Part shown: piece by piece, positions 2,426 through 60,166 of the stretch | Layout: each line of letters starts with the position of its first letter | Position numbering within the stretch: position 1 is the stretch's first letter | NCBI GenBank assembly: GCA_019096195.1 | Contig: JAGTXK010000005.1 | Location: 1 to 64,000, forward strand | DNA from: Boletus sp. NGJ | Lineage: Eukaryota > Basidiomycota > Agaricomycetes > Boletales > Boletaceae | Reading direction: 5' to 3' | DNA length: 64,000 nt | The notes under the pieces: model-generated | Told to the model about the DNA's origin: nothing | Databases searched by the model: none | The model's input: only the letters and a program-made list of their open reading frames with translations | Program-made: the position numbers and the translations under genes

Positions 2426-2505
2426 TGTAATAATATAGGAAATTTTCAAACTTTTCAAACGCTCTCTTACGTTTCATTTCTCTTCAAACTCTTTTCTTCA
2501 TAAGT

Positions 2506-2709
2506 CACGTGACTGTGCACGTGACCGTGGGAACACATCACATGACAGGTCTAGAACCTATGACGTCATATGACATCATACCTCATGTGATCCACGACCT
2601 TTTAATTTCCGCTCTTCTCACACAGCCCTATTAATCTCCGTCTTACCATACGTAGTAATTTATCACACGCACAGCATGGTCCGTGCGCACTTCTCTTCAT
2701 GTATATAAA
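2506..2709 (+). promoter_or_regulatory. LTR promoter: two CACGTG boxes, TGACGTCA, TATATAAA
   Basis: CACGTG occurs at 2506-2511 and 2518-2523, a palindromic cAMP-response-type TGACGTCA at 2561-2568, and TATATAAA at 2702-2709. The same set occurs in the 3' LTR and in the solo LTR at 18882-19364. bHLH and bZIP factors are the usual binders of these two motifs; which host factor acts here is inference. Confidence 0.6.
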
Positions 2710-2734
2710 CTAGCACTTTGACGACTGGTATCCC

Positions 2735-2746
2735 CAGTCTAATCCA
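2735..2746 (+). promoter_or_regulatory. predicted RNA 5' end / self-primer of element C
   Basis: CAGTCTAATCCA lies about 30 bases downstream of the TATA box and is the exact 12-base reverse complement of the sequence just inside the LTR at 2915-2926 (TGGATTAGACTG). In Tf1-type elements the 5' end of the RNA folds back to prime reverse transcription, and this arrangement fits that mechanism. Confidence 0.65.
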
Positions 2747-2914
2747 CTTGTACTCTTCCTCCAACAATCCATTAGCTTCGGTCTTCAGGCCGTCGTAGGG
2801 TTGGGAACATCCAGGACTAAGACTCCCCTCCTGATTCGTTCAGCCAGGACTCGTGTAGCCTGCGACGCATTTCCGAGCCTTGTGGTGTGCTTTCCGAAAG
2901 GGACTCATAACACT

Positions 2915-2926
2915 TGGATTAGACTG
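2915..2926 (+). other. primer-binding site of element C
   Basis: TGGATTAGACTG begins two bases inside the 5' LTR. It is complementary to the LTR sequence at 2735-2746, and I did not recognise complementarity to a tRNA 3' end. Self-priming is therefore favoured. Confidence 0.6.
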
Positions 2927-3024
2927 CGATACACAACGCTCGGACTCCAGAGCTAAGGAGATATACGCGGGCCCAGCGTTTTAAGGGACATCTGCATAGT
3001 ATTCACCACTTGACGGTGACGAGA

Positions 3025-3275
3025 AAAGCACTCGCCGAAACGCTTGAATATACGCTCGTCCGGCGTCATAAATAAGGATAACGTTGCTGCCGGGCATAGT
3101 GCACTAGCCCCACTTCTTAGGTGGTTGCCGACCTAAGCGTACGCTGGTTCTACGATAGTGAACCCAGGTTCTCGTGATCACCTGTGACGTCACGAAGTAG
3201 CGTTAGGGGGATTTATCTCGCCTTTCTCCTGTGCTACACCTGCTTGTAGTAAAAGCAGTTATACTCCGGTCCCCC
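3025..3275 (+). ncRNA. conserved structured leader of element C
   Basis: This non-coding leader aligns over about 250 bases with the leaders of elements B (about 43925-44180, minus) and A (about 46975-47225, minus), although LTRs and gag are unrelated. Hairpin 1 is ACGC/GCGT around loop TCGTCCG (3052-3066). Hairpin 2 is a 7-pair stem around GGTTGCCG (3116-3137). Hairpin 3 is TGCTT/AAGCA around GTAGTAA (3241-3257). Loops are conserved and stems co-vary across the three elements. Its role (packaging, dimerisation, translation start) is unknown. Confidence 0.65.
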
Positions 3276-3528
3276 TACCACCGTCGCCCACCATTTTTAA
3301 CGATCTATACTTCGACTCCTACGAAGGCGTAGGAACCCCAGAGCCGGATTGCAAGATATCTGGCAGTAAGGTTCTGAAAGAAGACCGACGAAGGAAAAGG
3401 AAAACCTACACAAGAAACCCCGACAAAGTCAGACCTCTCCGCCCATCCTCCGCATTCGCCCTTATACCGCATCCAATACTTCCGCTCTTACCTCCGCCCC
3501 GCATCCCTCCTAAGGCCCAACCAACGAT

Positions 3529-4516
3529 ATGTCTAGAGTCGACATCGACGAGCTTGGTCAAGAAACTCGCCGACCTCACGCAGGAGCGCGACAAGGAAAA
3601 CATCACGAAAGAAGATCGCCGATCCTGGGAAATGGGACGGCACAAGGTCATCATTCCGCCCCTGGTGGATAAAGCTCCGTCTCTGGGTTGACGCCCAGAA
3701 CATGGAAAAACAACAAGATTATGGACATCGCGGTCCTCTCCCGTCTCGAAGGAAAAGCGGAAGCCTTCGCGCAACTCATCATGGAGCACTACCTCGATGA
3801 GGAAGCTACCATCGAGACGGACGCAAACGGGGTCTTGCTAGCCGGCAAAAGGAGCCGACTGCATGGCCCACTTGGAACAGGTTGCAGGAGCAGATTAAAA
3901 CCCATTTCTGCATCGACACTCTGGCCCACGAGTCTTTAAGGAAACTCGAGACCTTAAAACAGAATGGTCATCCTATCGACCTGTTCCTCCAACGATTCGA
4001 GATCTTAAGGAAAGAGTCGTACATCGACGACCACCACGCCGCAGTTCTACTGAAAAAGGCGGTAGACTACAAAATTTACGAACGTTCTCGTCTTGAACAG
4101 CCCCGCTCGCAATTTTGACTACGAAGATCTAGTCATCAACTACAGAGTACATAGGGCGGGCATTCGAGCAGATCGTAAACGAGCGTGGTCCTCCTCACAG
4201 ATCTCAACCCCGCTTCATCCTTCCCTCCTCCCCGTGGGCAACCCCCACAAAATTCTTATCGTCCTACCTACACGGCAGTAGGAACGCAACCGGGTCGCGG
4301 CGCGCCCATGGAGATAGGTGTCCAGCAGGCTGGACCCTCCAAGGAAACTCGCACCTGTTTCCATTGTGGCAAGCCCGGCCACATCAAACCCAACTGCCCG
4401 ACGAACCCTTTCAAAAGGACAGGTCGTCCGCCCATGCAACGCCAGATCTGGGACTGGAACCAAGGCTCGTACGTCGAGCAAAACCAGGGAGAAAATGAGT
4501 ATCCCCACGTTTTTTA
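3529..4516 (+). pseudogene. gag region of element C (fossil)
   Basis: This is the gag-type region downstream of the leader. Its C-terminal part has a single CCHC zinc knuckle, CFHCGKPGHIKPNC, at about 4356-4397, the nucleocapsid signature. The preceding part contains a capsid-like stretch with helical peptides such as LDLFLQRFEILRKES-type sequence. It is broken in this copy. Confidence 0.8.
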
Positions 4517-4699
4517 ACGAATCCCAATCTCGCGCATATGCGCAACGACCTCTCCCGCAACCTCCCGTAGCTACGGCGGCACCAAGCGTAGCAGCAAGGT
4601 CTTACGTTTCCGATGAGGCGGAAGCGTACTATCAGAGACAAATTCGAGGTAGAAGCAAAAGCCCGAGCTGCTCAGGCTTTAAATGGACAGCGCCAATGA

Positions 4700-7600
4700 G
4701 TGCAGAGGGAACTCAGCGGCAAGAACTTTCTCTCTCTTTCATCTTCTCTTACGACATGTACACATACCGATTTCCCTATCTCTGATCTCTCCGCTGTACT
4801 ACGTAAATTATCTATGAAATCTGCGAGGGCGTCTCAATTGAGCGTGGCACCAGAATTAAGTGTACTTAATTCCCTCGTAAAACAACAAAAAATATCGAAT
4901 ATATATAAACCCACAAAGGTCACGTTAAACCAAGCATCTACGCTTTCCTATGGTGGAGAGTTCTCTCTCGAAACCACAGTATCGTGCAACGTTAACGGCC
5001 AGTGGTCGCGTTACCGTTTCCAGTCCCTCCTGGATTCGGGAGCGTCGCATACGTTTATCGATCAGGACTATGTAAAAAGACACGGAATACCTTTCTATAC
5101 CATCGACAACCCCATTAAGATACATAACGCTGACGGTTCGGAAGGAGCAATCGGACCGATCCGTCATGCGGTAACCCTGATGGTGGAAATCGAAGGACAC
5201 TACGAAGTCATAGACGCTTATATATCTAAATTAGGCACTCATCGAATGATCATCGGGTATGACTGGCTATATCGTCATAACCCTGACATCGATTGGGTAA
5301 AACAGACAATTACGTTTCCTCGATGTACCTCATACTGTAAAATTATGGGCCTAGGACCCACTTCTTCTTACGAGCCGGCTCAACTACGTACAATAGAAGA
5401 AGGACTAAAAGAAAAAGTTCCCTATAACCTATCACGAGTTTCTAGATGTTTTCTCGGAGAAAGAATCTCAAAGGATGCCCTTACGAAAACATTGGGATCA
5501 CGCAATCGATCTCAAAGAAGACTTCATCCCCAAGAAAGGACGTGTTATTCCCCTTTCGGACATCGAGATGGAAGAAGTCAGAACGTTTATCGAAAAGGAA
5601 GTCAAAAAGGGTTACGTCAAACCCTCCAAATCTCCACAGACATCTCCCGTCTTCTTCATTCCTAAAAAAGACGGCAAAAAACGAATGGTTATGGACTACC
5701 GCTATTTAAACGAAGGAACAATCAAGAATTCGTATCCACTCCCTCTTATTCCGCAATTAATTGATCGACTCAAAAATGCGGATCTATTTACGGCTATGGA
5801 TCTCCGATGGGGCTATAACAATGTCCGCATCAAAGAAGGCGACGAATGGAAAGCAGCATTCGTTACCCCTATTGGAGCATACGAACCCACCGTTATGTAT
5901 TTCGGTCTCACGAACTCCCCTCCTACATTCCAAACTATGATGAACGATATATTTAACGACATGTATGCCGTAGTCGTCATCTACATCGACGACGTCATGA
6001 TATTTACCTCAAAAAAGACAAAAGAACAACACGAAGAAGTTGTAAAGGAAGTTTTACGCCGTCTCCGCGAAAACGACCTTTACGTAAAACCAGAAAAGTG
6101 TACCTTCTCGGCAGACAAAAGTAGATTTCCTAGGGATGGTGGTATCTAAAGAGGGGGTAGAAATGCAGTCGAAGAAAGTAGCTGGGGTCATGGACTGGCC
6201 AATTCCTACTCGCTTGAAGCAACTTCAAGGCTTTCTCGGACTCTGTAATTATTATAGACGATTCATCGAAGGCTTCGCGCAAATCGCACGACCCTTGAAC
6301 GATCTTACCAAGAAAGACGTTCCATTCAAATGGGGTCCAGATCAACAAGAAGCATTCACCAACCTAAAAAGAAAATTCACGGAAGCACCACTTCTCGCGT
6401 ATCCTAACCGCGATCAAGAAATGCGTGTGGAAACCGATGCTTCAGACATCGCCACGGGAGCAGTGCTCTCCACATTATGCAACGATGGTAATTGGCGACC
6501 AGTCGCCTTTATCTCTCACTCTTTTGACAGCGCAGAGCGCAATTACCCATCTACGATAAAGAACTGCTTGCAGTTATACGCGCATTAGAAGAATGGCGTC
6601 ACTATTTAATAGGTCGCGAAGGATTTGAAATCTGGACCGACCACAAGAACCTCGAATACTGGAAGAAGCCTCAAACGCTTAGCGGACGTCAAGCACGTTG
6701 GCACGCACTTCTTCAAGAATTTAACTATTCTTTCGTTTACAAACCTGGATCGTCCAATGGAAGAGCCGATGCTTTATCTCGACGACCAGATCACGGTGAC
6801 GCAGTTGTAGATCACAATCAAAACGTCACCGTTCTCCCTCCTTCCATATTTATAAACCACGTTTCTCTTTCTTCTGATCTTATGACAAAAATACAAAAAG
6901 AATCCAAAAAACATAACGTCGACGCTATAAACAATTTCCTTTTCTACTCAGAACTTAATCTATTCAAAAACGAAAAAGATCAAATCTACGTACCTGAATC
7001 TTTACGTACAGAAATCATTACATTATGCCATGACTCGCCCATTGCAGGACACGGCGGTCATTCAAAAACTATACATACTCTCTCTCGATATTTCTCGTGG
7101 CCAGGAGTCACAAAGGACGTAAAAACTTACGTAGATCACTGCCAAGTGTGCGCCCTCACGAAGGGTAAGCAAAATGCACCGGCAGGAAAAGTCATTCCTC
7201 TTCCCGCGGCAAAAAGACCTTGGGAAGATCTATCAGTAGATTTCATCACTGGCTTACCGCCATCACAATCTTTTACGGCTATTTGCGTTGTTGTGGACAG
7301 ATTTTCAAAAGAAGTTATTTTTATACCAACATACGATACTTGTTCTTCGAAAGATCTAGCTATCCTATTTCGAGACCACGTCTGGTCAACACACGGACTT
7401 CCCTCTACCCTCGTATCAGATCGAGGACCACAATTCGTTTCTGCTTTCACCCAAGAGCTTTGTAAGCTTCTTGGTATAAAACAAAAAATCTCTACGGCAT
7501 ACCATCCGCAAACAGACGGACAAACCGAACGCGTTAACCGAGATCTCGAGCAGTATCTCCGCGCGTATGCCGGAAAGAAACAAAACGAATGGGTCGAATG

Positions 7601-8310
7601 GTTGAAATTAGCCCAATTCTCTCACAACAACACCGTCACTACAGCCACTGGAGAAATTCCCTTTAAAGTCACACGAAACTACATACCGCGTATGGGTTTC
7701 GAAGGGAATCTCACGGGTTTTGCAGACGAAATTGGGCGAAATCATAAGGAGATTGAAGAAGCGCTGGAAGCTACACGAGAGAGGATGATCACCTCTTCCG
7801 ATAAAAAACGATCTACAGCACCACGAATATTCTATTGGTCAGCAAGTCTGGCTTTCAACCGATAAATTAAAACTTCCTTATACGGCGAAAAAACTCACAC
7901 AAAAATGGATTGGCCCCTACGTCATCACTCGGGTACTTCCTAACGCCGTAACGCTCAAACTACCTAATTCGGTTCACATCCATCCAACTGTGAACATTTC
8001 TCGCGTCAAACCATATAGAGATACGCTGCCTGGACAGCCTAAATCTCGACCAGACGCTATAGAAATTGACGAAGAAGGAGAAGAGCAATTCGAAGTTGAT
8101 TATATCGCCGCTTCCAGGTTGAAGAAAGGCAAAATAGAATATTTGGTTCATTGGAAAGGTTACGACGAAACCGATCGAACTTGGGAATCTGAAGACATTC
8201 ACGTAACTGCACCGGATGCAGTACAAGATTTCCATCGTCTTAACCCTTCCGCACCACGCAAGCTTCGTGGTCTTATCGTTATCAGCATTCGCTTCTTTAT
8301 TCTCTCCTTA
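4700..8310 (+). pseudogene. pol region of element C: PR-RT-RH-IN-chromodomain (fossil)
   Basis: The order on the strand is as follows. Aspartic protease has LLDSGASHTFID near 5025-5060. Reverse transcriptase has YIDDV at 5982-5996. RNase H has ETDASD near 6430. The integrase zinc region has the H-H-C-C pattern at about 7030-7150, and the catalytic core has SVDFITG, VSDRGPQF and TDGQTERVNRDLE at about 7225-7560. A chromodomain with YLVHWKGYDETDRTWE lies at about 8090-8235. Chromodomains direct chromoviral integration to marked chromatin. The region has several breaks. Confidence 0.9.
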
Positions 8311-8377
8311 TGAAAATTTCACCGAACAACGAAAAAACAACGACTCGCCTGGAATTCGAGTCTTAAAGAGGGGGTAG

Positions 8378-8860
8378 TGTAATAATATGGGAAATTTTCA
8401 AACTTTTCAAACGATCACTTACTTCTTCATTTTCTTCAAACTTCTTCTTCATAAGTCACGTGACTGTGCACGTGACCGTGGGAACACATCACATGATAGG
8501 TCTAGAACCTATGACGTCATATGACATCATACCTCATGTGATCCACGACCTTTTAATTTCCGCTCTTCTCACACAGCCCTCTTAATCTCCGTCTTACCAT
8601 ACGTAGTAATTTATCACACGCACAGCATGGTCCGTGCACACTTCTCCTCATGTATATAAACTAGCACTTTGACGACTGGTACCCCAGTCTAATCCACTTG
8701 TATCTTCCTCCAACAATCCATTAGCTTCGGTCTTCAGGCCGTCGTAGGGTTGGGAATATCCAGGACTAAGACTCCCCTCCTGATTCGTTCAGCCAGGACT
8801 CGTGTAGCCTGCAACGCATTTCCGAGCCTTGTGGTGTGCTTTCCGAAAGGATTCATAACA
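8378..8860 (+). repeat. 3' LTR of element C
   Basis: A 483-base LTR preceded by the polypurine tract AAAGAGGGGG. It is followed directly by the CAGAC target duplication at 8861-8865. Confidence 0.95.
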
Positions 8861-18881: not shown

Positions 18882-19364
18882 TGTAATAATATAGGAAATT
18901 TTCAAACTTTTCAAACAATCACTTACTTTTCATTTTCCTTAACTATTTTCTTCATAAGTCACGTGACTGTGCACGTGACCGTGGAAACATATCACATGAT
19001 AGGTCTAGAACCTATGACGTCATATGACATCACACCTCATGTGATCCACGACCTCTTTAATTTCCGCTCTTCTCACACAGCCCTATTAATCTCCGTCTTA
19101 CCATACCTAGTAATTTATCACACGCACTGCTTGGTCCATGTGCACGCTCTCCTCATGTATATAAACTAGCACTCTGACGACTGGTACCCCCAGTCTAATC
19201 CACTTGTTCTCTTCCTCCAATAACCTATTAGCTTTGGCCTTTGGTCATCGTAGGGTTAGGAATAGGACGGCCTATGACTCCCCACCTTATTCGTTAAGCC
19301 AGGACTTGTGTAGCCTGCGAGATATTCGAGCCTTGTGGTTTGGTTTCCGAAAGGGATCATAACA
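18882..19364 (+). mobile_element. solo LTR of family C
   Basis: A 483-base LTR closely related to those of element C, with the same ends, E-boxes, TGACGTCA and TATA box. The self-primer CAGTCTAATCCA is also kept, at about 19190. A 5-base duplication AACAT flanks it (18877-18881 and 19365-19369). It arose by LTR-LTR recombination of a full element that landed inside the candidate TIR element. Confidence 0.95.
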
Positions 19365-22740: not shown

Positions 22741-24752
22741 CAAGAGTGCATGGTATTTATATTCTGAGAGGAGATTGTTAAACAAGTCATGAATGTATTT
22801 ATAGATGACACTCCTATTCAAGGATCTACTACTACATACCCTGACAATAAAAAAAACCCTGCTGTTCTACCAGAACAACCTGAAATACCTGGGAACATGC
22901 AGAAGATTTAAACCAAATCCTACACCAACTAGCAGAAGCTGGAGGAACATTTTCTGGAAAAAAACTCCAAAGCTGCCAACCTGAGGTTACTATCCTCGGA
23001 CAAGAAGTAGGAGTAGAAGGATGAAAATCTGATGCTGGACAAGTCATAGCAATCCAAATTTGGCCTGCCCCTAAGAATGTCAAAAAAGCTAGGCAATTTA
23101 TAGGACTATGTGGAACCATATGCATTTGGATACCCAACTACTCACAAATAGAATCTTGTATAACTTCCCTCTAGAGAAAAGTAGTAGAATTTGCTTGGAC
23201 TGAAGAATAACAAGAAGCTTTCAATACACTCAAGCATTATATTACAACTGCCCCAATACTAGTGTCTATTGACTATACCTGTGAATGACCCATCATTTTA
23301 TCTAGTTGATTCAAGCTACATAGGTGTAGGAATGATACTATCACAGTTGGATACAGAAGGCAGGAGATGACCATCAAGATATGGATTGTTACCATTCTCA
23401 AAGACAGAAGCAAATTATTCCCAACCCAAGCTGGAGCTATTTGGATTATTCCAAGCTCTAAAGCAATTCTGAATCTATATTATTGGAGCTAAGAATCTCA
23501 TTGTTGAGGTTGATATCAAATACTGTATATTCAGGGAATGCTAAATAAACCTGAACTTCAACCCAATGGAGTAATCAATAGATGGATTCAAGGAATACTA
23601 CTATTTGACTTTGAATTAGTACATGTACCAGCCATTAGATCCAAAGGACCAGATGCACTATTTCAAAGACTCAAAGAGAATGAAACTGAAGTGCAACCTT
23701 ACAATGATAGTTGGTTAGATGAAATTGCTCTATTCTATAGTGATTATGGACCAGCCTTATGAAAGAGAAATGGTATTCTCAGTGCCACATCCAATTCCCC
23801 AACAACACAAGTGTTGATAGCTGTGGGAACACAACAGTCAAGCCTTGAGAAAATGTACCAGTATCTCTCCAATCCTGAACTCCAACCCACAAGTCGTAAC
23901 TTTCTTAGGAAGATAGTGAAGTACTTCATAAAAGCAGGCTGAATATTCAAAAGAACCAAATCAGGACACCCTACCCTGGTTATCTTTGACTCAGACAAAA
24001 GAGTAGAACTGCTTCATCAAGCCCATGAGTTATTAGATCACTATGGAGAAAAGGCAATCTGGAAGAACTTATGATACCACTTTTATTGGCCCCAAATGTA
24101 CCAAGATGTACAACATCATGTCAAATCTTGTCATGAATGTCAGGTATAGAGCATAGCCAAAATTCATTTACTCATTACTACACCACCTTCTTTCACCATT
24201 TTCACAAAAGTCCACATAGACATAATGTTTATGCCCCTGGCTAAAGGATAGTGTTAGCCCAAGATAACTTATCAAAGTACGTTGAAGGTAGAGCATTGTG
24301 AAGAGCCACTGCCAGTGAAGTAGCTAAGTTTGTGTTGGAAGACATAATCCTCTGCTATGGATGTATAGAAAAAATAGTTAGTTACTGACAATGAACCTGA
24401 GTTCAAGAGAGTCTTATCAGAACTACTCAAGAAACATAGGTATTCATCTCCCCCTACAATTCCCAAGTGAATGGAGTGGTAGAACAAGGATAAGAAAAGT
24501 TCTGGTGAAAGCTTGCAAAGGCAACATCCACCTGTGATCAGATAAGCTGAAAGCAGCCCTATTTGCAGATAGTGTCACAGTCAGAAGATCCATAGGATAT
24601 TCAGCATATTTCCTATTACATGGAACTGATCCTGTACTACCCTTTGACCTATGAAAGTCAACCTTCTTGATTGAAGGATTTAAGAATAATATATCACATG
24701 AAGAATCGTTAGCCCTATGCATTAAACAGATAGAACAATGTGATGAAGATAT

Positions 24753-25333
24753 TGTCATATCCCGTGTAACTCAACAAGTCCAACTCCGGCACTCCGTCCA
24801 TAACTCCAGCACGTTCTCCTCTGGAGCACACTCTCATACCCTCAGACTTATGACTTCCTCTATATAGTATTTATACTTCTTCATTTGTGTATAAACCTAT
24901 GCTTTCTCATCCATCCTAGCTCTGCTTCATAGCTGTCCCTGAACCAGTGCCTGTCCCACTTAGGAGCACTGCTCTAGTCAGGTCCCATCTCTGTTTCCTT
25001 TACTCAGCTACTTACTCATTACACCTTACAAACTCTGTTAGTAATCTCAATTCCAACCATATATAAACCCTCAGTATTACTCTTGTAAAGTTAGTTCAAA
25101 TATCAACTCTGAACATCACTCTTGTCCTCCGTCTGAGTCTCAACAACTCACTCTGACCTCCACTCAACTTGACATTCAACTATGTTGAGTCCATACCTCT
25201 GATCTTCCTATGTCCTCGAAATCTGGGACATCAGACTTGAGCAAGGGCACACCACATAAGGTGAAGCCAAGTCTCAACACCCTCAAGTAACTCCAGTTTA
25301 TTGGAGTTGCATTGGAGTTGTCCATTCATAACA
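24753..25333 (+). repeat. 5' LTR of element D
   Basis: It starts TGTCATATCCC and ends CATAACA. TATATAAA lies at 25060-25067 and a self-primer candidate AGTTCAAATAT at 25093-25103. That pairs with ATATTCGAACT just inside the LTR (25336-25346) with one A-C mismatch at a former CpG. Confidence 0.9.
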
Positions 25334-28300
25334 GTATATTCGAACTCCCACTTGCAAACAAGTCTCACATTATGGCTACATGCACTACTAGATCCCAGAC
25401 TCGTGCCTTGGGCGCAAACCCCTCCACTTCCCCACAATACAACCCATTAAGCATGTTCGGCAGCAGTCAGTGAGGTCCAGAACTTGTTGACCAGTTCTGA
25501 AGTTTCTCTGCTCAACAAACCTCCACCTCCACCTCACAATCGTGACCACTCCCAGAGTCCCCTACTCCAGGAGCATGCATTGTCAAGTTACCCACCAATG
25601 ATGATTTCACCACCTTCCCACTCATAAGCCAACACTCTAGGTGAAGAGTGCAGGCTGCCCTCTTTTCAAATGATGACATCCCAGATGTTCCCAGAGATGA
25701 CCCATTAGATGATGATCCCAACTTCTCCAATGACGATGTTCCCTCAGACTCCGACAATGAGCACGTCCTGCAAGACACCCTTGCACTGCTTGCTGATGCC
25801 ATCAAAGGCCTCGCTTGCTCCACACATCATCCCTCTAACCACACACCATGCACTAAAGTCCAGAAACTGGACCAGTTTGACAGGATAGAGCCCCGCAAGC
25901 TCTGGGTCTTCCTGGTGCAGTGCAAACTCAACTTCCAAGACCACCTGAAGGCTTTCAGGATGGACTGTGCCAAAGTTACCTTCGTGCAGTCCTACCTAAA
26001 GGGCATGGCACTGGAATGGTTTGAACCAGACCTCCTCCAGATGGAAGATCCCACCTTCCTTTCACTAAAGGAAGCCTTTACCACTGCTCCTATCCTTACC
26101 CATTGGGCTCCTGATGCTCCAATGATTATAGAAACTGATGCCTCTGATTATGCCATCGCTGGGATTCTCTCCATCTGCTGTCCAGATGAAGAACTCCAGC
26201 CAGTCACCTTCTTTTCATGGACACTCACTGCTCTGGAGCTCAATTACAACACACATGATAAGGAGCTCCTCGCCATCCACGAATCCTTCCAGGCTTTGCA
26301 GCACTACCTTGAAGGCTCCGGCACTCCAATCAACATCATTACCGACCACAACAACTTGAAGTACTTCGCTATCTCAAAACTCCTGACTCACCAGCAAGCC
26401 CGGTGGTTGGAATTCCTCTTCCAATTCCACATGATCGTCCGCTTTCACCCTGGGTGCCTTGGCATGAACCTGATGCCCTTACTAGATGCTGGGACATCCA
26501 TCCCAAAGAGGGGGATAAGGACTACACTTGCGTCAACCCACACAATTTCTGCCCCATCTTTACACAGGAACAGCACACTTCTTCCCTCCATGCTACTTAT
26601 CTTGCAGCTCTGGTACTCTGGGCTAGCACTCTGTTTGATATAGAGCAACTCCACAGTGACATTCTATCTACACTCCTCTCTGACCCACTTGCCGAATTAC
26701 ACATGTCCTCCTCTGATCTGGACTCATGCTGGTCAGTCAATGAAGACGGCTTCCTCCATTTTGACAAATGCATCTATGTCCCTGATGCTAATGACCTCCG
26801 ACTCTGAGTCCTCCATTACAAACACGACCATCCCCTCTCTGGACATTTTGGCCAAAATCGGACATTGGAACTTGTATGCCACAAATACACCTGGCCAAGG
26901 ATATGGACATTTGTCAAAGAATACATCTCCTCCTGCACCACTTGTGCCTGTGCAAAAGTTCCAAGACACCAACCCTATGGGTTGTTGAAACAACTCCCCA
27001 TTCCAAAAAGCCATGGAACTCCATCTCTATGGATTCATTGAGCAACTCCCCTCATCCTCTGGATTCACTGCTATCCTCATCGCCATGGACCAATTATCCA
27101 AACAGTGCATTTTCATTCCAATATATGACACAGTAACATCCCCAGACTTGGCAAAACTATTCCTACTCCATGTCTTTTCTAAGCATGGAGTTCCCTCTCA
27201 CATCACCTCCAATCAAGGTTCAGAATTCATCTCATATTTCTTCTGCTCACTTGGGAAAGTGCTTGACATCCACCTCTACTTTACCTCTGGCTATCACCTC
27301 GAAGGAGACAGTCAGATAGAGCAAATGAATCAGACGCTTGAACAGTACCTCTGCATATATTGCAATTACCAGCAAGACAACTGGTCCGAACTCCTTCTGT
27401 TAGCAGAGTTCGCATACAACAACACCCTAAGTGCTACTACCGGTGTCTCCCCATTCTTTGCCAATAAAGGCTACCATCCCAATGTCACAGTACACCCCAA
27501 GCACGACCCACCTCCACCAAAGCCCACGAATACTCTGTAGACCTTGATTCCCTCCATGATTACCTCTGTGAAGAGATAGCTGCCGCCCAAAAGCATTATC
27601 AAGGACCCACAGATGCTAGGTGATCTCCAGCACCAGACTTCAAAGTCAGCGACCCAGTCTTCATAAAAGCAAAATACTTCTGCTCCACTAGGCCTTTAAA
27701 GAAACTCTCCAAGAAGAATCTAGGGCCCTACCCAATTATAGCTCAGGCAGGCTCCCACTCCTTCACTCTCCGACTCCCTAAATCAATGAAGTCCATTCAT
27801 CTGGTCTTTCATGTCTCGCAGCTAGAACCCTCCATACCCAACACCATACCTAACCAGGTACAATCTCTGCCACCTCTGGTCAAAGTAGACAGAGAACCAG
27901 AATACAAAGTTTCAGAAATCCTCGACTTGAAGATAGACTGACATTGCCAGAACTGTAAACTCCTGTACCTCATCCGGTGATCGGAATACAAAGAAACAGA
28001 CGAAGAAACCTCTTGGCTTCTAGCCACCAAACTTGGTCATGCTTCCAAACCTGTTTGCAACTACCACAATCACTATCCAGACAAGCCCAGACCTCATTCT
28101 GCATGACCGGACACAAATTCCATTACAAAGAAAAAGGACAAGTAGTCTACTACACTACTTCTTCTTCTTCTCCTCCTTCTCCCTCCTCTTCTTCCTTCTC
28201 CCCATTTTTCTTGATTACCTCCACAGCCAATCTGGCCAACTCCAACTCCACCTCTGTTTTCTCCCCATCTTCTACTTCCTCCTCCAACTCCTCACTCCCA

Positions 28301-28930: not shown

Positions 28931-29106
28931 TTGATGATGTTGTCAATGTCAGACATGGTTGGTGATGAGAGGTAAGGAGTATGCAGAATTGACTGGACAC
29001 ACCTTCGTCCTTTATATCTTTTTTTCATTTTTCAGACTTCGATTATCTCCACTCTGCATTGTCTCTTGCCTAGGCCTTCAGGGGTTCAGGCCTAAGAGGG
29101 GGATAC

Positions 29107-29687
29107 TGTCATATCCCATATAACTCAACAAGTCCAACTCTGACACTCTGTCCATAACTTCGGCACATTCTTCCCTGGAGCACACTCTCATACCCTCAGA
29201 CTTATGACTTCCTCTATATAGTATTCATACTTCTTCATTCATGTATAAACCTATGCTTTCTCATCCATCCTAGCTCTGCTTCATAGCTGTCCCTGAACCA
29301 GTGCCTGTCCCACTTAGGAGCACTGCTCTGGCCAGGTCCCATCTCTGTTTCCTTTACTCAGCTACTTACTCATTACACCTTACAGACTCCGTTAGTAATC
29401 TCAATTCCAACCATATATAAACCCTCAGTACTACTCTTGTAAAGTTAGTTCAAATATCAACTCTGAACATCACTCTTGTCCTCCATCTGAGTCTCAACAA
29501 CTCACTCTGACCTCCACTCAACTTGACATTCAACCATGTTGAGTCCATACCTCTGATCTTCCTATATTCTCAAAATCTGGGACATCAGACTTGAGCAAGG
29601 GTGCACCACATAAGGTGAAGCCAAGTCCCAACACCCTCAAGTAACTCCAGTTCATCGAAGTTGCATCAGAGTTGTCTGTTCATAACA
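29107..29687 (+). repeat. 3' LTR of element D
   Basis: Preceded by the polypurine tract AAGAGGGGGA (about 29094-29103) and followed by GATAT. It matches the 5' LTR along its whole length. Confidence 0.9.
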
Positions 29688-30499
29688 GATATGGACAAAG
29701 CCATGTAAATATTACAAAAATCCCACCTTATATCAAAGCATCAATTTGAAAAGCAATTTAAAACTTGCTTGGTGTATGGACACTATCTCTCTTGGAGAAT
29801 TAGTCCTTATTAGGAATACTGCCATTGAAAAGGAACTAAACAGGAAGACCAAACCCTAATACCTAGGACCATACAAGGTAGTCCAACACACCAAAGGAAG
29901 CAGTTATATACTAGCTAAGCTAGATGGAACTGAACTTGCCCACTCCATAGCCACATTTAGAATTATACCCTATATTCAAAGGAGTATTCTGAAGCAGCTA
30001 ACCCAAAACCAAGACCTTGATAGGAAGAACCCAGATAGTTGAGTTTCCTAGATGATGAGGCACCTCATTAAACTACCATTCAGATATGAATCTAAGTAGA
30101 AACTCACTAAACTACCCTATAAGTGAGACCTTATTAAACTACTCTAGGGAATATACACTCCCACCCATTATAATGAACCTGAATTTAAATCAGTCATCAA
30201 CCCATCTACAGTATTATCTCCCCTATAAGAGTGGTGGAAGATTTACTTTCAATCTGAGCAGTTTAGAATTGAAAACATATTATGAGAAGCTACCTATCAT
30301 TGGATAGCTCATTTGTGCACAGCACACCCCATTAGGATATCTCATCCCACATTTGGAATCACTCCGTTTCACAAAACTGAACCACCTGAAACAATAGTTC
30401 TGGAAATTCCCAGATCTAACAGTGCAAAGTCACTAATAATACCATCATCAACAACCTACATCAATTGCAGTGAGATACTGTATACAACAAGATACATAG

Positions 30500-33702: not shown

Positions 33703-34061
33703 TGAAAGGAAAAGGCCTTAATATCTCAAGAGGCGCGAAGTGCGCTATCCAAGAGAGAGAAAAGGAATTCCAAAGCTACCGAATACAAGTGTTACTACAC
33801 TACTTATATACTACCTACTCGTGGGCCTGGACCATGGTTTAGGGCCGGCATGGAAGCTACTAGAATGTTCTGTATGACGTACAGTGATGTAGTGGGGTCT
33901 AGGCTGTTCTATGGGTATAGGGTTGTGACATAGCCTGACGTAGGTGTGACGTGTGGTCTAGACTTAAGGTCTAGGTATAAGGTAACTACATAAGCATCCG
34001 TGGGATCACTGAGTCTTAGCTAACTATGATAATTGAAAGGAAAAATGTCAGAGTCGTTTCA
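33703..34061 (-). repeat. 3' LTR of element A
   Basis: Reads TGAAAGGAAAAGG...GTCGTTTCA on the plus strand. On the element-sense side it is preceded by the polypurine tract, seen as TTACCCCCTTTTTAG on the plus strand from 34062. Confidence 0.95.
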
Positions 34062-37000
34062 TTACCCCCTTTTTAGCTGTTGAACTCCTGGTCGACAATG
34101 ATACTGGTGAACTTGACGTCACTGTGGGGTTTGGGGATTTTGAAGAGGCGGTTGGGTAGTTGGTTGAGGGATGCTGCATACGAGCGGAAGGACGGGTCGT
34201 CAAATAGCAAGGCACCGGGGAGCACGCATATAGGGCAGTCACATTCATCGTCTGTGAGGGTGCAGATGGTGGTGGGGTTCTCGCAGTGAAACTTCTTGAT
34301 CGCCTGTGGGGCATTTGAGACGTTCTTCTTTGGTTCCCAAGTGTGCTCTTCGCAGGGGTATCCTTTTCATTGTACGAGGTATTCCATCTTGCCGCGTTGC
34401 TTACGTAAGTCAGCGACGTGTTCAACTTCATACTCTTCTTGTTGTTGGACGATAACCAGGGGCAGTGGTTTTGGTTTCGTCTGGGAGGGGGATGTGCCAG
34501 GTCGATAGGGCATGAGGAGTGATTTGTGGAAGACGGGGTGGATTCCTTTCCACATTTTCAGGAGGTCGAGCTCATAGGAGGTCTCACCTATCTTCTGTTT
34601 CACTCTGAATGGCCCATGTCATTTATCATCGAACTTCTTCGTTGGTCAGTCGGTTCAGATGTGGGTTCCTTCAAGCAGAACCTGTTGGCCAATGGTGTAT
34701 TCGATGGCAGGGGAGGCACACTTGTCGTGTGACTTTTTCATTGCCTGTGCTGCTTTTTCCAGTGTGTCCTTCGCCAAGTTGTGGTGTCTTCATCGTCTTG
34801 GCGAAGGAGGTGGCAGACTCATTCCATACTTCCACTCTTTTGTTGGGTATGAGTGGTTATTGCCCGTAGTTGAGCAAGAATGGCGAGACACCTGTGGCGC
34901 TGGTGGTTTGGGAGTTGTGGGCAAATTCGGCTAGTGGTAGCCACTCTGCCCAGTTGGTTTGGTGGTGGTTGACATAGATGTGTAGGTATTTCTCTACCTC
35001 TTGGTTGATGCGTTCCATCTAGCTGTGGACAGGTTGGCTTCGATGCCAAGGAGGGAGTAGAGGTCACGCATGAATGACGACACAAACTGTGTTCCTCGAT
35101 CTGAGATCACCTTGCGGGGGATGCCGTGGAGTTTGAATATCTGGTTGTGGAAGATTGTCACGACTCCTTGTGACATAATGGTGTCCATCACCGGTGCTAG
35201 GTGAATCATTTTCGAGAAACGGTCGACAACGACTAGAATGGTGTTTTTGCCGTCGGATTGGGGGAGGGGGCCAATCAGGTCTACAGAGATGATCTCCCAA
35301 GGGGACAATGGGATCTCGTTCAGGTGGAGCAGCATGTGAATTGCTGAGATTTTGGCTTTAACCTTTTGGCATGTGTTGCAGCCTTTTACGTATGACTCCA
35401 TGTCTCTTCGTAGGGATGGCCAATAGTATTCGCTCATGATTAGGTCCCACATTTGCTGGATACTGGGGTGGCCGGCGATCGGGTGATCATGGTTAGCGAT
35501 GAGGATGTCCTCTCAGAGTTTCATGTCATTTGGCACGTATATGAGCGACTTTCAGTGGACAAGTTCTTCTTTGTGGGTCCAGGGTGAGTCCTCTTTTTCC
35601 AGGCCGTCTTTGGCAAACTGCTCAAGTTTGTATTGCATTTTGGTGATTCTCGAGAGTGTGCTTGCTGGTGTGACGGCCTTGAGGGAGACTGTTGTGGAGG
35701 TTGGTGACAGTGGGGGCGAAAAAAGCATGTCTGGGAGTAATGTTTGTGTGGTGTTATCGGATGTCACCCCCTTTTCAAAGTCTGGCCTCTGGAACAGAGG
35801 ATCCACAGGGTTGGTTTTGCTGGGTTGGTGGCTGATTACTATGTGGTATTCTTGTAGTACTTGTTGCCATCTGGCCTGGTGATATGTGAGATCTTGTGGT
35901 TGGCGGAAGAACTCGAGGTTCTTATGGTCCATTTAGATCTCGATTGGGTGTGCGGCTTCAAGGAGGTATTGTTGCCATTTGTTGAGGGCAAACATGATGG
36001 CTAGCATCTCCAGATTGGCTGTGTGGTAGTTCCACTCGGCGTTGTTGAGAGAACAGGAAATGAAGGTGACAGGGTGCCATACACCATCGTGTCGTTGGGA
36101 GAGGATGGCACCAATGCCAATGCTGGAACCATCGGTTTCGATGCAGTAGGGGTCATCATCGGTTGGCATGGCTAGCGCCGGGGCAGAGGAGATGGTGTCT
36201 TTGAGGGTTTGGAAGGCTTCTTGGCAGGCTGTTGTCCACTCAAAGTCTTTCTTCACCAACGTGAGCGCGTTTAGGGGGCATGCAATCATGGCGAAATTCT
36301 TGATGAACTGTCGGTAGAAGTTGAGGAACCCAAGGAAACCTCTCAATGTCTTCTTTGATATGGGGGTTGGCTAGCTTCTGATGGCTTCCATCTTCTTTCC
36401 GTCCATCTTCACCTTGTTTTGTGCAACAATGAGCCTGAGGAACTCGGTTTCTTGGACTTTGAAATTGCACTTGTTGTGATGTAGGTAAAGGTGGGCATCC
36501 CTCAAGATTTGTAGTACTTTGCATACCACTTTTCGGTGCTCTTCAAGCATCTTCGTGAATATCATGATATCGTCTATGTAGATGACCACTATGCCTCGGT
36601 CCACCAAGTTTTTGAACAGCGCATTCATCATGGTTTGGAACGTCGCCAGGGAATTGGTGAGTCCAAAGAACATCACGAGTGGCTTGAATAAACCGCAGTT
36701 TGTTCAGAAGGCTGCCTTCCATTCGTCTCCCTCTGCCATTCGTACATTGTTATAGCCCCATCTCACATCGAATTTGGTGTAGAACTTGGCTGACTTAAGC
36801 TTGTTGACCAGTTCGCTTATGAGTGGGAGGGGGTATCGGTTTCTTTTGGTTACCATGTTTAACTTGTGGTAGTCTTGTATGGGGTGGAGGCGTCCGTTTT
36901 TCTTCTTGATAAAGAAGAACGCCAATGCTAAGGGGGATTTGGAAGGCCGTATTCTTCCGGATTTGAGGTTTTTCTTGAGGAAGGTGTCGAGTTCTTTTTG

Positions 37001-37689
37001 CTCGCCAGAGTTCAGCAGGTAGACCTTGCAGTCCACTTCATGATTTCCCGGTAGGAGTTTGATGGCATGATCTCAAGGGCATCTTGGGGGTAGCATGTCG
37101 AAACTCTCTTTGTTGAAGATGTCCTTGAATTCATGGACGTACTTCGGGGCAGCTTCCTCGAAGGTTTTCTTTTTCTTTTGGGCATAGTCTCTAATAGCTA
37201 CCTCTGTGGCAACATTCAATTTCTCATGTATTCTACTACATTGATTTCGAACAGATGGTCACCTTGGAAGGGCATGTAGTCTACATCCATTTCATCCTCT
37301 TTCTCATCTATGTTGTTTGTGACATGGTCTCCCTTACAGCAGAAGGAGATTCTACCCATTTTCCAATTGATGGCTGGATTGTGTGTCTTCAGCCAATCGT
37401 GTCTGAGGAATATTGTGTTGGGCCTGAGGTTTGTTACAGCGAGGGCCAACTGCTCCTTATGGTCGTGGACTTGGAGTTCGAGTATCACGAACCTTTCTAC
37501 TTTGCCTCCAGCATTGGGCGTGCCATCAGCGTTGTACACAGTGAGGGGGCGAGGGAGTGAGTGGGTGGGTACCCCCTTTTCAGCCACAAACTTCTCGTGT
37601 ATGGACAATCTGGTGCAACCCGAGTCAATCAGCATCTTGACTTCAGCAGTCTGACGATTTGTGAGGATTACTTTGACAGGGATCTCCAA
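34062..37689 (-). pseudogene. pol region of element A (fossil)
   Basis: In element order, the protease has MLIDSGCTRLSIHEK (about 37630). Reverse transcriptase has RYPLPLISELVNKL (about 36820) and VVIYIDDIMIF (about 36585). RNase H has ETDGSSIGIGAILSQR (about 36140). The integrase zinc region (YVKGCNTCQKVK) and core (ISVDLIGPLPQ, VISDRGTQFVSSF) lie at about 35050-35430. A chromodomain-like tail (YEVEHVADLRKQ) lies at about 34420. It is similar throughout to element B and broken in several places. Confidence 0.9.
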
Positions 37690-37751
37690 GGAGTTTTGCT
37701 TGGTTGATCGGAGGGAGGCTTTTCAGAATTTGGGAGTGTGTTGAAGGTTGT

Positions 37752-38100
37752 TGAAAGAGAAAAGACCTTAATATCCTTAGGGGCGCAAGTGCGCTATCCA
37801 CAGGAGTGAAAAGGAATTCCAAGACTAGCTAATACAGATGTTGGTACACTACCTTATATACGTAGAGAGAAATGCATGGACCAGCTTAGGGCCAGTTGTA
37901 GAAACTACTAGAATGTTCTCTATGACACAGAGTGACGTAGTGGGAGTCTAGACTGTTCTAGGGGTATTGGGTTATGACATAGTCTAACTAATGTGTGACG
38001 TATGGTCTAGGCGTAAGGCTTGGACGTGAGATAACTAGGTAATCGTTCGTGGGATCGTTAAGTGTTAGCTAACTACGATAAATAAAAAGAATTCATTTCA
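37752..38100 (-). repeat. 3' LTR of element B
   Basis: TGAAAGAGAAAAG...ATTCATTTCA on the plus strand. The polypurine tract complement TTACCCCCTTTTTAG follows from 38101. Confidence 0.95.
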
Positions 38101-41100
38101 TTACCCCCTTTTTAGGCGTCGAACTCCCGGTCGACAATGATACCGGTGAGCCGAGGGTGGCTAAGGGGGTGAGGGATTTCGAAGAGGTGGTTGGGGAGGT
38201 TGTTGAGTGATGCGGCGTAGGAGCGAAAGGAGGGGTCGTCGAATAGGGGTGTACCAGGGAAGGCGCACGTTGGGCAATCGCACTCACCGTCTGCTAGGGT
38301 GCGAATGGTGGTGGGGTTTTCATGGTGGAACTTCTCGATTGCCTGTGGGGCATTTGAGATGTTTCTTTTGGGTTCCCATGTGTGTTCTTCATGTGGGTAT
38401 CCTTTCCACTGTACTAGGTACTCCGTTTTACCTTGTCGCTTATGTGAGTCTGCAACATGTTCAACCTCATACTCTTCCTGCTGTTGGACGATGACCGGGG
38501 GTGGAGGTTTCGGTTTTGTCTGAGAGGGGGAGGTGCCGGGGCGGTAGGGTGTGAGGAGTGATTCGTGGAAGACAGGGTGGATTCCCTTCCACGTCTTCGG
38601 GAGGTTGAACTCGTAAGAGGCTTCGCCCACCTTTCGCTTCACTTGGAACGGCCCATGTCATTTATCGTCAAACTTTTTTGTTGGTTGGTCAGTTCGGATG
38701 TGTGTCCCTTCTAGTAGGACCTGTTGACCGACTGTATATTTGACAGTGGGTGAGGCACGCTTGTTGTGGGAGGTTTTCATCGCCTGTGCTGCCCTCTCCA
38801 GTGCGTCTTTCGCTGAGTTGTGGTGCATTTTCATTGTTTCGGTGAAGGATGTGGCGGATTCATTTCGTACTTCTACTCATTTGTGGGGTAGGAGTGGTTG
38901 CTGCCTGTAATTGAGTAGGAAGGGAGAGATGCCAGTGGCACTGGTGGTTTGCGAGTTGTGTGCGAACTTGGCTAGTGGTAGCCATTCCGCCCAGTCCGTT
39001 TGGCAATGGTTCACGTATATGCGCAGATACTTTTCCACCTCTCGGTTGATGCGCTCTGTTTGACCGTTGGTCTGAGGGTGATAGGCCATAGACGGGTTAG
39101 CTTCAATGCCGAGGAGGGAGTAGAGGTCGCGCATAAAAGATGATACGAATTGGGTTCCCCTGTCTGAGATCACCTTTCGTAGGACACCGTGGAGTCTGAA
39201 TATTTGGTCGCGGAAGATTGTCACGACTCCTTGTGATGTGATGGTGTCCATCATGGGTGTTAGGTGGATCATTTTGGAGAATCAATCTATGACGACTAGG
39301 ATGGCGTTCTTGCTGTCGGATTGGGGGAGGGGGCCGATTAGATCTACGGAGATGATCTCCCACGGGGATGATGGGATCTCATTTGGGTGGAGTGGAGTGT
39401 TGATTGCCGAGGTTTTGGCTTTAACCTTCTGGCAGACATCACAACCCTTTACATATGATTCTATGTCTCTACGTAGGGATGGCCAGTAATATTCACTCAT
39501 GATTAAGTCACGCGTTCGTCGAATACTGGGATGGCTGGCGATCGGGTGATCATGGTTTGTGATGAGGATGTCTTCTCGGAGCTTCACGTCGTTTGGCACA
39601 TACACAAGCGATTTCCAGTAGACGAGTCCTTCCTTGCGAGTCCAGTGTGAGCCCTCTTTCTCCAAGCCATCTTTAGCGAACTGCTCGAGCTTGTACTGCA
39701 TTTTGGTGATCCTTGTGAGTGTGCTCGCGGGCATAATGGCTTTAAGGGAGACCGTGGTGGAGGTTGGTGAAGGGGGAGGTGAAAAAAGGGTGTCGGGGAG
39801 TAGTGTCTGTGCGGTGTTATCAGATGTCACCCCCTTTTCAAAGTCTGGCCTCCGGGACAGAGGGTCAGCTGGGTTTGTTTTACCGGGTTGGTGGCTGATG
39901 ACTATGTGGTATTCTTGTAGTACTTGTTGCCAACAGGCCTGGCGGCGTGTGAGATCCTGGGGTTTGCGGAAGAACTCAAGGTTCTTGTGATTCGTCCAGA
40001 TCTTGATTGGGTGTGCAGCCTCAAGGAGGTACTGACGCCATTCATTGAGGGCGAACATGATGGCGAGCATCTCCAGGTCGGCTGCATGATAGTTCCGCTC
40101 AGCGTCGTTGAGGGAACGGGAGATGAAGGCGACGGGGTGCCATATGCCATTGTGTCGTTGGGAGAGGATCGCGCCGATGCCAATGCCTGAACTGTCGGTC
40201 TTGATGTGGTAGGGGTCATTGTCGGTTGGCATGGCCAGCGTGGGGGCGGAGGAGATGGTGTCTTTGAGGGTTTGGAAGGCTTCTTGGCAAGCCATCGTCC
40301 ATTCGAAGTCTTTCTTTACTGACGTGAGCGCATTTAGGGAGCACGCGATCATGGTGAAGTTCTTTATGAATCGTCGGTAGAAGTTGAGGAATCCTAAGAA
40401 TCCTCTTAGTGTTTTCTTTGAGGTGGGGACTGGCCAGCTTTTGATGGCTTCCACTTTTTTGTCGTCCATCTTTATCTTGTCTTGTGCGACAATGAGTCCG
40501 AGGAATTCGGTTTCTTGGACCTCAAAGTCACATTTGTCGTGGCGTAGGTATAGGTGGGCGTCCCTCAGGATTTGTAGTACCTCTCGTACTACTTTTCAGT
40601 GTTCTTCGAGTGTCTGCGTGAATATCATGATATCGTCTATATAGACGACCACTATGCCTCGGTCCACCAAATGCTTAAATAGCGCGTTCATCATGGTTTG
40701 GAACGTCACTGGGGAATTGGTGAGTCCAAAGAACATCACAAGCAGCTTGAATAGACTGCAGTTGGTTCAGAAGGCTGCCTTTCATTCGTCCCCTTCGGTC
40801 ATCCGTACGTTATTGTACCCCCATCTCACGTCGAATTTAGTGTAGTATTTGGCCGATTTGAGTTTGTCGACCAGTTCATTGATGAGGGGGAGCAGGTAGC
40901 GATTTCTCCTTGTCACTGTGTTTAGCTTGCAGTAATCCTGTACGGGGCGGAGGTGTCCGTCTTTCTTTTTGATGAAGAAGAATGCTGAGGCAAAGGGGGA
41001 TTTGGAGGGTTATATCCTCCCAGACTTCAAGTTTTCTTCAAGGAAGGCGTCGAGTTCTTTTTGCTCACCGGGGTTTAGTGGGTAAACCTTACAGTCTACT

Positions 41101-41770
41101 TCGTGGCTTCCCAGGAGGAGTTCAATAGCATGGTCCCAAGGGCGTCTCGGGGGTAGGGCATCAAAGCTTTCTTTGTCAAAGACATCCTTGAACTCATGAA
41201 CGTACTTTGGGGCTGCTTCCTCGAAGGTTTTCTTCTTTTTTGGGGCATAGTCTTTGATTGCTACTTCTGTTGCGATGTTTCGATTTCTCATGTATTCTAC
41301 TACATCGAGTTCAAATAAGCGATCGCCCTGTGAGGGCATGTAGTCTACGTCCATTTCGTCCTCCTCTTCGTCCACATTGTTCGTAACGTGGTCTCCTTTA
41401 CAGCGGAAGGAGATCCTGCCCGTTTTTCAGTTGATGGCTGGGTTGTGAGTTTTCAGCCAGTCGTGACCAAGGAATATCGTGTTTGGCCCGAGGTTTGTTA
41501 CTGCGAGGGCTAGTTGTTCTTTGTGGTCATGCACCTGGAGTTCAAGTATCACAAACTTTTCTACTTTGCCTCCGGCATTTGGCGTGCCGTCGGCGTTATA
41601 TACAGTGAGGGGATGGGGAAGAGAGTGAGTGGGTACCCCCTTTTTAGCTATGAAGTCCTCGTGGATAGAAGATCCTGTGCAGCCTGAGTCGATTAATGCT
41701 TGGACTTCAGCTGTTTGGCGATTTGCAAGAGTCACCTTGACAGGGATTTCCAACGAGTTCCTCTTCACAG
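38101..41770 (-). pseudogene. pol region of element B (fossil)
   Basis: Protease with ALIDSGCTGSSIHEDF is at about 41700. Reverse transcriptase with the IYIDD-type box lies near 40635. RNase H with KTDSSGIGIGAILSQR is near 40190. The integrase zinc region (YVKGCDVCQKVK) is near 39435. Its core (ISVDLIGPLPQ, VISDRGTQFVSSF, TNGQTERINREVEKYL) spans 39360-39010. A full chromodomain, EYEVEHVADSHKRQGK then YLVQWKGYPHEEHTWEP, lies at about 38310-38475. Only a few breaks are seen. Confidence 0.9.
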
Positions 41771-41799
41771 TTCGAGGGGATGCCTTTCAGAACTTGGGT

Positions 41800-43697: not shown

Positions 43698-43924
43698 CTC
43701 ATCTTAGTCCGGCGAGTTCTGCGAGACGAGTGATGGTGCAGAGACGATGGATGTGTGTGGAGTAAGTTGTGAGGGTGGTGTGGACAACAAAGCAGTAATC
43801 TGGGTGCGCCCAGACGTATCGTCGGCGGAAAACGTTATAGGGGCGGGGAGTGTCCGAAGGCAGCTTTAAAAAGAAGATGGCGGGAAAGACTGCACACCGT
43901 TGAGAAGTGGGAGAGTCGAAAGAG

Positions 43925-44180
43925 GGAACCAGAGGATAACTTCCTTACTACAGGAAGGTGCTACACAGGAGGAAGGCGAGATAAACCCCCTTATCGTAGC
44001 TACGTGACGTTGCGGGTGATCACGCGAACCTGGGTACACTATCGTAGTACCAACGTACGCTCTGGTCGGCAACCACCAGAGAAGTGGGGCTAGTGCTCTA
44101 TGCCTGGTAGCAACGTTATCCTTATTTGTACGCCGGACAAGCGTATAGACGAGCACTTCGATGAGTGCTCTACTTGACTG
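43925..44180 (-). ncRNA. conserved structured leader of element B
   Basis: Same leader as in elements A and C. Hairpin 1 is TACGC/GCGTA around TTGTCCG at 44129-44145. Hairpin 2 is CTCTGGT/ACCAGAG around GGTTGCCG at 44060-44081. Hairpin 3 is CTTCC/GGAAG around TGTAGTAA at 43940-43957. An extra hairpin GAGCACT/AGTGCTC around CATCGA (about 44150-44170) is perfect here and partial in A and C. Confidence 0.65.
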
Positions 44181-44526: not shown

Positions 44527-44539
44527 TAGTCTTGGAATT
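44527..44539 (-). other. primer-binding site of element B
   Basis: The plus strand shows TAGTCTTGGAATT right against the 5' LTR. The LTR holds its exact reverse complement, AATTCCAAGACTA, at 44603-44615, about 30 bases from a minus-strand TATATAAG (about 44642-44649). This is the self-priming layout. Confidence 0.65.
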
Positions 44540-60163: not shown

Positions 60164-60166
60164 GGG

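Follow-up and report, generated by a model that had tools for sequence, protein, structure and literature searches.

A structured, pseudoknotted leader RNA common to two distantly related groups of LTR retrotransposons in a Boletus genome

The 64,000-nucleotide stretch of contig JAGTXK010000005.1 from Boletus sp. NGJ that was analyzed here (hereafter, the window) contains three LTR retrotransposons, namely, element C on the forward strand and, on the reverse strand, element A, which is interrupted by element B (Table 1). These are recognizable as LTR retrotransposons by their domains, their LTR pairs and, in B and C, 5-bp duplications. The Pfam domains detected are RVP_2, RVT_1, H2C2 and rve in C, RT_RNaseH, H2C2 and Retrotrans_gag in B, and Retrotrans_gag in A; going by these domains, we take all three to be Ty3/gypsy elements. 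The window also includes an apparent solo LTR of the C family (18882-19364, 89% identical to the LTRs of C), another LTR-like pair (24748-25339 and 29102-29692, 94% identical) around an RT_RNaseH ORF (25648-26643), where the covariance model of the leader described below finds no match, and two inverted copies (47984-51686 and 60298-64000) that are 98.6% identical over 3.7 kb and overlap two ORFs (51175-51801, 208 aa; 60084-60809, 241 aa), neither with a Pfam match.

Table 1. Positions of the elements, their leaders and the leader helices in the window
Feature	Position	Strand	Details
Element C (group 1)	2426-8860	+	LTRs 2426-2912 and 8378-8860; 5-bp duplication CAGAC (duplication and 3' edge by eye)
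Predicted self-primer of C (predicted mRNA 5' end)	2735-2746	+	33 nt after TATA at 2702; 12-nt exact complement of PBS
PBS of C	2915-2926	+	just after the 5' LTR
Leader RNA, whole module, element C	3002-3273	+	covariance model 311.9 bits (model's own training row); edges by between-group identity
P0 hairpin	3003-3019 (3003-3007/3015-3019); B 44193-44177, A 47242-47226	+ in C	FWER 0.00; both-side changes in 5/5 pairs
P1 hairpin	3026-3045 (3026-3029/3042-3045)	+	FWER 0.33 (all 91), 0.00 within group 1, 0.54 within group 2
P2 hairpin, UYGUCCG loop	3052-3066 (3052-3055/3063-3066)	+	both-side changes in 2/4 pairs; 92.9% of cells paired; absent from the 91-copy helix list
P3 hairpin GGCAUAG(N)GCACUAGCC	3093-3109	+	nearly invariant; 98.3% of cells paired; 0 pairs changed on both sides
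PK1 pseudoknot	3112-3125 (3112-3114 with P4 loop 3123-3125)	+	FWER 0.01 (91 copies); 0.00 in rerun on all and on group 2
P4 hairpin, GGUUGYCG loop	3116-3137 (3116-3122/3131-3137); B 44081-44060, A 47129-47108	+ in C	FWER 0.00; also within each group
P5 hairpin	3146-3164 (3146-3150/3160-3164)	+	FWER 0.00, likewise in group 2; 0.80 in group 1, not significant
P6 stem	3165-3184 (3165-3169/3180-3184)	+	weak: FWER 0.22, rerun 0.13; 92.9% paired
PK2 pseudoknot (probable)	3172-3195 (P6 loop 3172-3177 with 3190-3195)	+	outer pair GU/UA/AU/GC; 91.7% paired
P7 two-part hairpin, 13-nt loop	3197-3237 (P7a 3197-3202/3232-3237; P7b 3207-3211/3225-3229)	+	FWER 0.00 for both parts; also within each group
P8 hairpin, UGUAGUAR loop	3240-3258 (3240-3244/3254-3258); B 43957-43940, A 47005-46988	+ in C	FWER 0.00, likewise in group 2
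First AUG after predicted mRNA start of C	3529-3531	+	opens a gag frame that, in C, runs for 47 codons before a stop
Element A (group 2), interrupted by B	33703-47951	-	
Element B (group 2), inside A	37752-44887	-	5-bp duplication GTTGT (edges and duplication by eye)
Leader RNA, element B	43925-44194	-	covariance model 312.5 bits (training row)
Predicted self-primer of B; PBS	44603-44615; 44539-44527	-	12 nt; 13 nt with the LTR end placed at 44540 (by eye)
Leader RNA, element A	46973-47243	-	covariance model 309.5 bits (training row)
Predicted self-primer of A; PBS	47654-47667; 47590-47577	-	14-nt exact complement

The three elements share a leader, with 82.7% identity between C and B over 248 nt, 76.0% between C and A over 250 nt, and about 85.7% between A and B over 251-253 nt. 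A preliminary description of this DNA had put the common segment at about 250 bases and at least 70% identity, which turns out to have been cautious (76.0-85.7% measured); its coordinates, 3025-3275 in the case of C, hold as well, except that the unit is slightly longer, beginning one hairpin upstream (C 3003) and ending near 3273-3275. The copies fall into a C-like group 1 and an A/B-like group 2, each similar throughout, with the leader as the sole long match between them. By blastn, the DNA of C upstream (LTR and spacer) and downstream (post-leader region and gag start) of the leader matches neither A nor B, and in the pol DNA, the similarity between C and most group 2 copies is confined to a patch of about 180-255 nt. 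Matches to group 2 in the upstream stretch were seen in two copies, L012 from group 1 (134-173 nt) and L021 (36 nt).

The elements had been described as otherwise unrelated, which goes too far for the proteins; the elements are distant Ty3/gypsy relatives. The fragments of 11 group 2 copies are 47-59% identical to C in the reverse transcriptase (RT) and 35-44% in the integrase. Translated pol blocks are 40-49% identical between the groups (five comparisons), 67-71% between L027 and core group 2 (two), 74-84% within core group 2 (three) and 84-88% within group 1 (two). For gag, between-group matches are weak and were obtained with the composition correction off: 59 residues at 25-29% in the capsid part and 61-75 residues at 32-36% in the proline-rich part. 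The nucleocapsid motifs, as identified by eye, differ, with CCHC in group 1 and C-x2-C-x5-C-x2-H in group 2. Both groups include copies with a long open gag frame.

The genome that contains the window comprises 32.8 Mb in 141 contigs; its RPB2 shares 94% identity with the best named match, from Hygrophoropsis aurantiaca, which places the host among the agaricomycetes, probably in the Boletales. The core motif of the leader (35-nt pattern, up to 3 mismatches) occurs in it at 203 places, compared with none for the reversed control pattern, which excludes chance; the exact pattern has no occurrences in IMG/VR or in GTDB genomes. Profile search of the sampled loci (20 of up to 8 kb, 80 short and 8 obtained earlier) together with the window elements yielded 113 leader matches, of which 103 span both ends, giving 91 distinct rows; the 10 partial matches were excluded from the covariation tests. 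Two of the 91 rows, L049 and L052, are one locus included twice, differing at the edges only, and this locus is present once in the 70-copy set discussed below. Locus L014 carries two same-strand leader copies (81-377 and 1427-1697) about 1.05 kb apart, the first of which is more diverged (168 vs 319 bits). Among 100 group 1 junctions of the PPT and the 3' LTR, 46 have a known leader within 9 kb upstream, in 43 cases at 5.2-5.4 kb. Ten junctions were sampled from the other 54; eight have the leader (seven full and one truncated), and in the remaining two, nothing matches the 5' portion of C, L026 or L018. No group 1 relatives without the leader were found among the 46 plus 10 junctions inspected out of the 100.

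The leader sits between the PBS and the gag AUG and is, therefore, part of the full-length genomic RNA and not of the LTR. Its start is 475-504 nt (23 copies), and its end about 225-255 nt, upstream of the gag AUG. In 10 of 10 elements (C, A, B and seven further loci; one from group 1 and nine from group 2, three of these near-identical), the PBS is complementary over 12-14 nt to the predicted 5' end of the mRNA, 31-33 nt after a TATA box, and the primer/PBS duplex differs between families in a matched fashion. This complementarity points to self-priming of the Tf1 type, and tRNA priming was dropped because the PBS is complementary to the predicted mRNA start. The 12-14-nt complementarity between the PBS and the predicted mRNA 5' end resembles that of Tf1 and Tj1 (PMC4600332), but here, the primer structure is followed downstream by a 270-nt module, and none such is described for Tj1 in the available text of that source (PMC4600332).

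The predicted 5'UTR is poor in AUG triplets. Seven of the 23 copies have none in the 794-919 nt between the predicted mRNA start and the gag AUG, where 4.3-7.2 would be expected, and the count is below expectation in 20 copies and above it in three (L014, L028 and L027). Among the AUG-free copies, five (L011 and L015-L018) are near-identical and the other two (C and L008) come from a single family, so that the depletion is suggestive only. A TAAGGAG motif upstream of the leader was considered as another shared signal and rejected because the reversed control gave equal shared 9-mers, three each.

The leader folds into about twelve short helices within ~270 nt. The preliminary description had recognized three hairpins (P2, P4 and P8), with stems that change together between the elements. 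All the quoted stems are present, namely, CTTAGGT/ACCTAAG at 3116-3122/3131-3137 in C, CTCTGGT/ACCAGAG in B and CTCGAGT/ACTTGAG in A, along with the short stems and their partners (the TGCTT type in C, CTTCC in B, CTTTC in A); P4 and P8 are significant by covariation, P2 is not. In P0, just upstream of 3025, the stems are group-specific and the loop is alike. P3 hardly varies, so that its conservation is clear but its pairing is not proven. PK1 is a compact, statistically supported H-type pseudoknot, with AU, GU, CG and UG among the copies at its outer pair. PK2 is probably a second, weaker pseudoknot; it rests mainly on the outer pair, the two inner pairs failing in 12 and 16 of 70 copies, and has no family-wise value because these two pairs fall below the pairing cut-off of the helix scan. 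A long-range helix between GGAUAA (alignment columns 77-82) and UUAUCC (259-264), convincing in B, was rejected because many copies do not keep it (two positions are paired at only 0.65 and 0.71); for the stretch in columns 77-82, the P7 loop is the better fit (five positions at 0.88-1.0), without covariation. Some stretches, for example, AAAUAAGGAUAANGUUGCU, are strongly conserved and have no proven partner.

The covariation test was modeled on the R-scape idea, combining a G-test with average-product correction and a tree-based null in which the parsimony substitutions of each branch are re-dealt among columns, with column rates kept (100 simulations). Across the 91 distinct copies, seven helices are significant at a family-wise p of 0.01 or less: P7b, P4, P0, P7a, P5 and P8 (0.00) and PK1 (0.01). 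When rows were allotted to the groups by the P0 loop and tested separately against the same type of null, all seven helices recur in the 62 group 2-like rows, and four (P7a, P1, P7b and P4) are found in the 29 group 1-like rows. In 16 group 2 elements, six helices are significant in the leader, compared with none in either the gag or the post-leader control stretches and two in the spacer between the PBS and the leader. The two spacer helices are nested as one further hairpin and so may be real; still, this leaves one control that is not empty. This spacer hairpin of group 2 (B 44398-44306 and A 47446-47356, both on the reverse strand) pairs spacer-alignment columns 163-165/214-216 and 157-160/221-224 (FWER 0.00 each) and 142-145/232-235 (0.06).

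Pair counts agree with this structure. In 70 copies, thinned at 94% identity, 95.0% of 4250 cells are paired, and changes on both sides occur in 598 cells, compared with 180 after shuffling; the covariation score, 0.434, drops to 0.176 in shuffles and to 0.128 or less when the alignment is slid. Both-side change affects 37 of 61 pairs, compared with 31.6 in shuffles, a value reached by 1 of 500 shuffles. The structure was derived largely from the copies of this set, so that leaders fetched later provide a fairer check: in seven full group 1 leaders, 404 of 423 cells are paired, compared with 30-46% when slid. Among 5258 cells, 472 are G-U and 176 are A-C, and this excess of G-U identifies the sense strand as the RNA. 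The folding energies of single sequences are unremarkable (z of -1.34, -1.91 and -0.35). In four group 1 copies (six pairs), selected because their gag start is open over a long stretch, the p-distance is 0.055-0.107 in the leader, 0.34-0.58 at four-fold sites of gag and 0.040-0.067 at codon positions 1 and 2, so that the leader evolves 4-7 times slower, uncorrected, than the four-fold sites. The initial claim that the stem changes reflect selected RNA structure is, accordingly, borne out by the larger alignment, with covariation exceeding the phylogenetic background in the complete set and in each group alone. The evidence supports a selected, structured RNA encoded by the sense strand.

The impression that the loops belong to no described RNA family also holds within the searches performed. 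At gathering thresholds, Rfam 15 has no matches in the whole window; in a permissive search, the only match in C was mcrA (E 8.1, 10.1 bits against a threshold of 57.6), and there was none in B; at E of 1 or less, none was found in 20 further loci. No description of the leader was found in the literature searched, that is, open-access titles and abstract openings. Structured leader signals of retroelements are a known kind; what appears to be new is the family itself, together with the pseudoknotted architecture and the movement between lineages.

That the leader was exchanged between the lineages is strongly supported. Identity between the groups in 15-nt windows is 0.39-0.63 upstream of C 3025, 0.52-0.95 at 3025-3279 and 0.19-0.45 from 3275 on. 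In the unrooted leader tree, group 1 forms one clade (100/99) on a branch of 0.14 to core group 2, and L027-like leaders are placed further out (99/98). In the tree of RT and integrase, the groups are separated by 1.18 changes per site, and L027 belongs to group 2. The leader and protein trees strongly disagree, and the leader has very probably moved between the two lineages; vertical descent would require, by our estimate, an about eightfold slowing of the leader on the between-group branch alone. Such a transfer explains the sharing but not the covariation, and it leaves the case for structure intact because the compensating changes are significant inside each group and hold in the later-fetched copies. 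A recent acquisition by recombination, which the preliminary description named as fatal to its proposal, comes near to what is seen here: exchange is very probable, whereas recency is contradicted by the diverse leader clade that each group has of its own. Given an unrooted tree, the direction of transfer is not shown. Elements of this kind do recombine, as indicated by the mosaic group 2 elements L020 and L023, in which the leader goes with L011/L022 and pol with B/L028.

We favor, with a probability of roughly 0.5, the reading that the leader acts in cis as a signal of the genomic RNA, involved in packaging or dimerization in the manner of retroviral psi or serving as a scaffold for the start of self-primed reverse transcription. 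Retroviruses have a structured packaging leader between the PBS and the gag start, present in the full-length RNA. The Boletus leader, likewise structured, AUG-poor, located between the PBS and gag and limited to the full-length RNA, is comparable, which is the reason for a psi-like reading. It differs from the psi and Ty1 leaders in that there is no Rfam similarity and no universal palindromic loop, the leader is shared by elements with differing nucleocapsid motifs, and its role is a proposal. The difference in nucleocapsid motifs does not favor a single signal read by both Gags. In the loops scanned, P3 and P0, palindromes of the dimer type are found in 51 and 27 of the 91 copies, respectively; neither is universal, so that a kissing-loop dimer site is not supported, and both loops were rejected as the dimer palindrome. 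Yeast Ty1 also has a 5' pseudoknot (PMC4974528); packaging of Ty1 requires sequences within the 5' 580 nt, and the pseudoknot matters for reverse transcription, whereas, according to the available text of the same study, its role in encapsidation could not be demonstrated (PMC4974528).

Under this cis-acting signal reading, the leader would have been swapped as a unit between the two lineages, with template switching between co-packaged RNAs as the presumed route, after which compensatory change would have kept the fold in both groups; a leader common to both would, in turn, permit the co-packaging that template switching needs. BARE elements, which belong to Ty1/copia, offer a parallel. BARE2 retains packaging and dimerization signals and is packaged in BARE1 particles, so that conserved leader signals are common to elements using one particle (PMC3735527). 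Unlike BARE2, which makes no Gag, both groups here include copies in which gag is open over a long stretch.

The foremost alternative, possible although we consider it tentative, is a candidate translation element that recruits or guides ribosomes for Gag, by internal entry, as a cap-independent enhancer or by shunting. Compact pseudoknots are typical of IRES-type RNAs. An element of this kind would face the host and thus be portable between elements with different Gags, as the common leader and the differing Gags and nucleocapsid motifs of the two groups would suggest, and transfer of IRES modules from one virus family to another is on record (PMC7354566). The likeness to the IRESes of picorna- and flaviviruses, structured 5'UTR modules moved between lineages onto other coding sequences (PMC7354566), ends with the location of the leader, which belongs to LTR retrotransposons and lies, in an AUG-depleted region, a long way before the start codon. 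The scarcity of AUGs, in copies that are not independent and with 3 of 23 above expectation, points, although not decisively, to ribosomes scanning the whole leader and against internal entry, and there is no Rfam match. A role in translation would explain the portability better than packaging does, but would explain neither the AUG desert nor the gap of 225-255 nt before gag. A broader version, which we hold to be no less doubtful, is that the leader represents a new class of portable selfish pseudoknotted RNA that would face the host (the ribosome or another machine) rather than Gag and spread by recombination independently of the proteins.

Less likely still is a putative element for nuclear export, stability or evasion of silencing that would bind a host protein on the full-length RNA. 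Its portability between elements with different Gags and the strongly conserved stretches for which no partner is proven are compatible with such a role, but the motif was not seen in any host RNA among 20 long loci, themselves chosen by the motif. Retroelement ribozymes exist, and the pseudoknots and invariant stretches could suggest a putative catalytic RNA, self-cleaving or processing, outside the Rfam types; this is very improbable because no Rfam ribozyme is matched, even at permissive thresholds, and because cleavage at the leader would sever the genomic RNA between the PBS and gag. Finally, shared ancestry of a recombined DNA segment, with stems changing by chance or mutational bias (methylated CpG, RIP-like), would fit the very probable transfer and the partial decay of the copies by transitions (13/13 LTR differences in A and 12/14 in B, but only 13/26 in C), but is refuted, unless the null model is badly wrong, by covariation beyond that null inside each group with empty gag and post-leader controls, the pair counts with their G-U excess, the slow evolution of the leader and the later-fetched copies.

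Definition of the signals that act in cis in Ty3-type elements is poor; in yeast Ty3, those that direct retrosome localization and packaging are described as 'not precisely defined' (PMC11381356). The leader provides a concrete target, with helices fixed by covariation, about 200 places with the core motif and two protein lineages that carry it. Its transfer as a unit amounts to a natural experiment able to separate Gag-facing from host-facing functions, and suggests that a unit of exchange between retrotransposons can be an RNA structure and not a gene.
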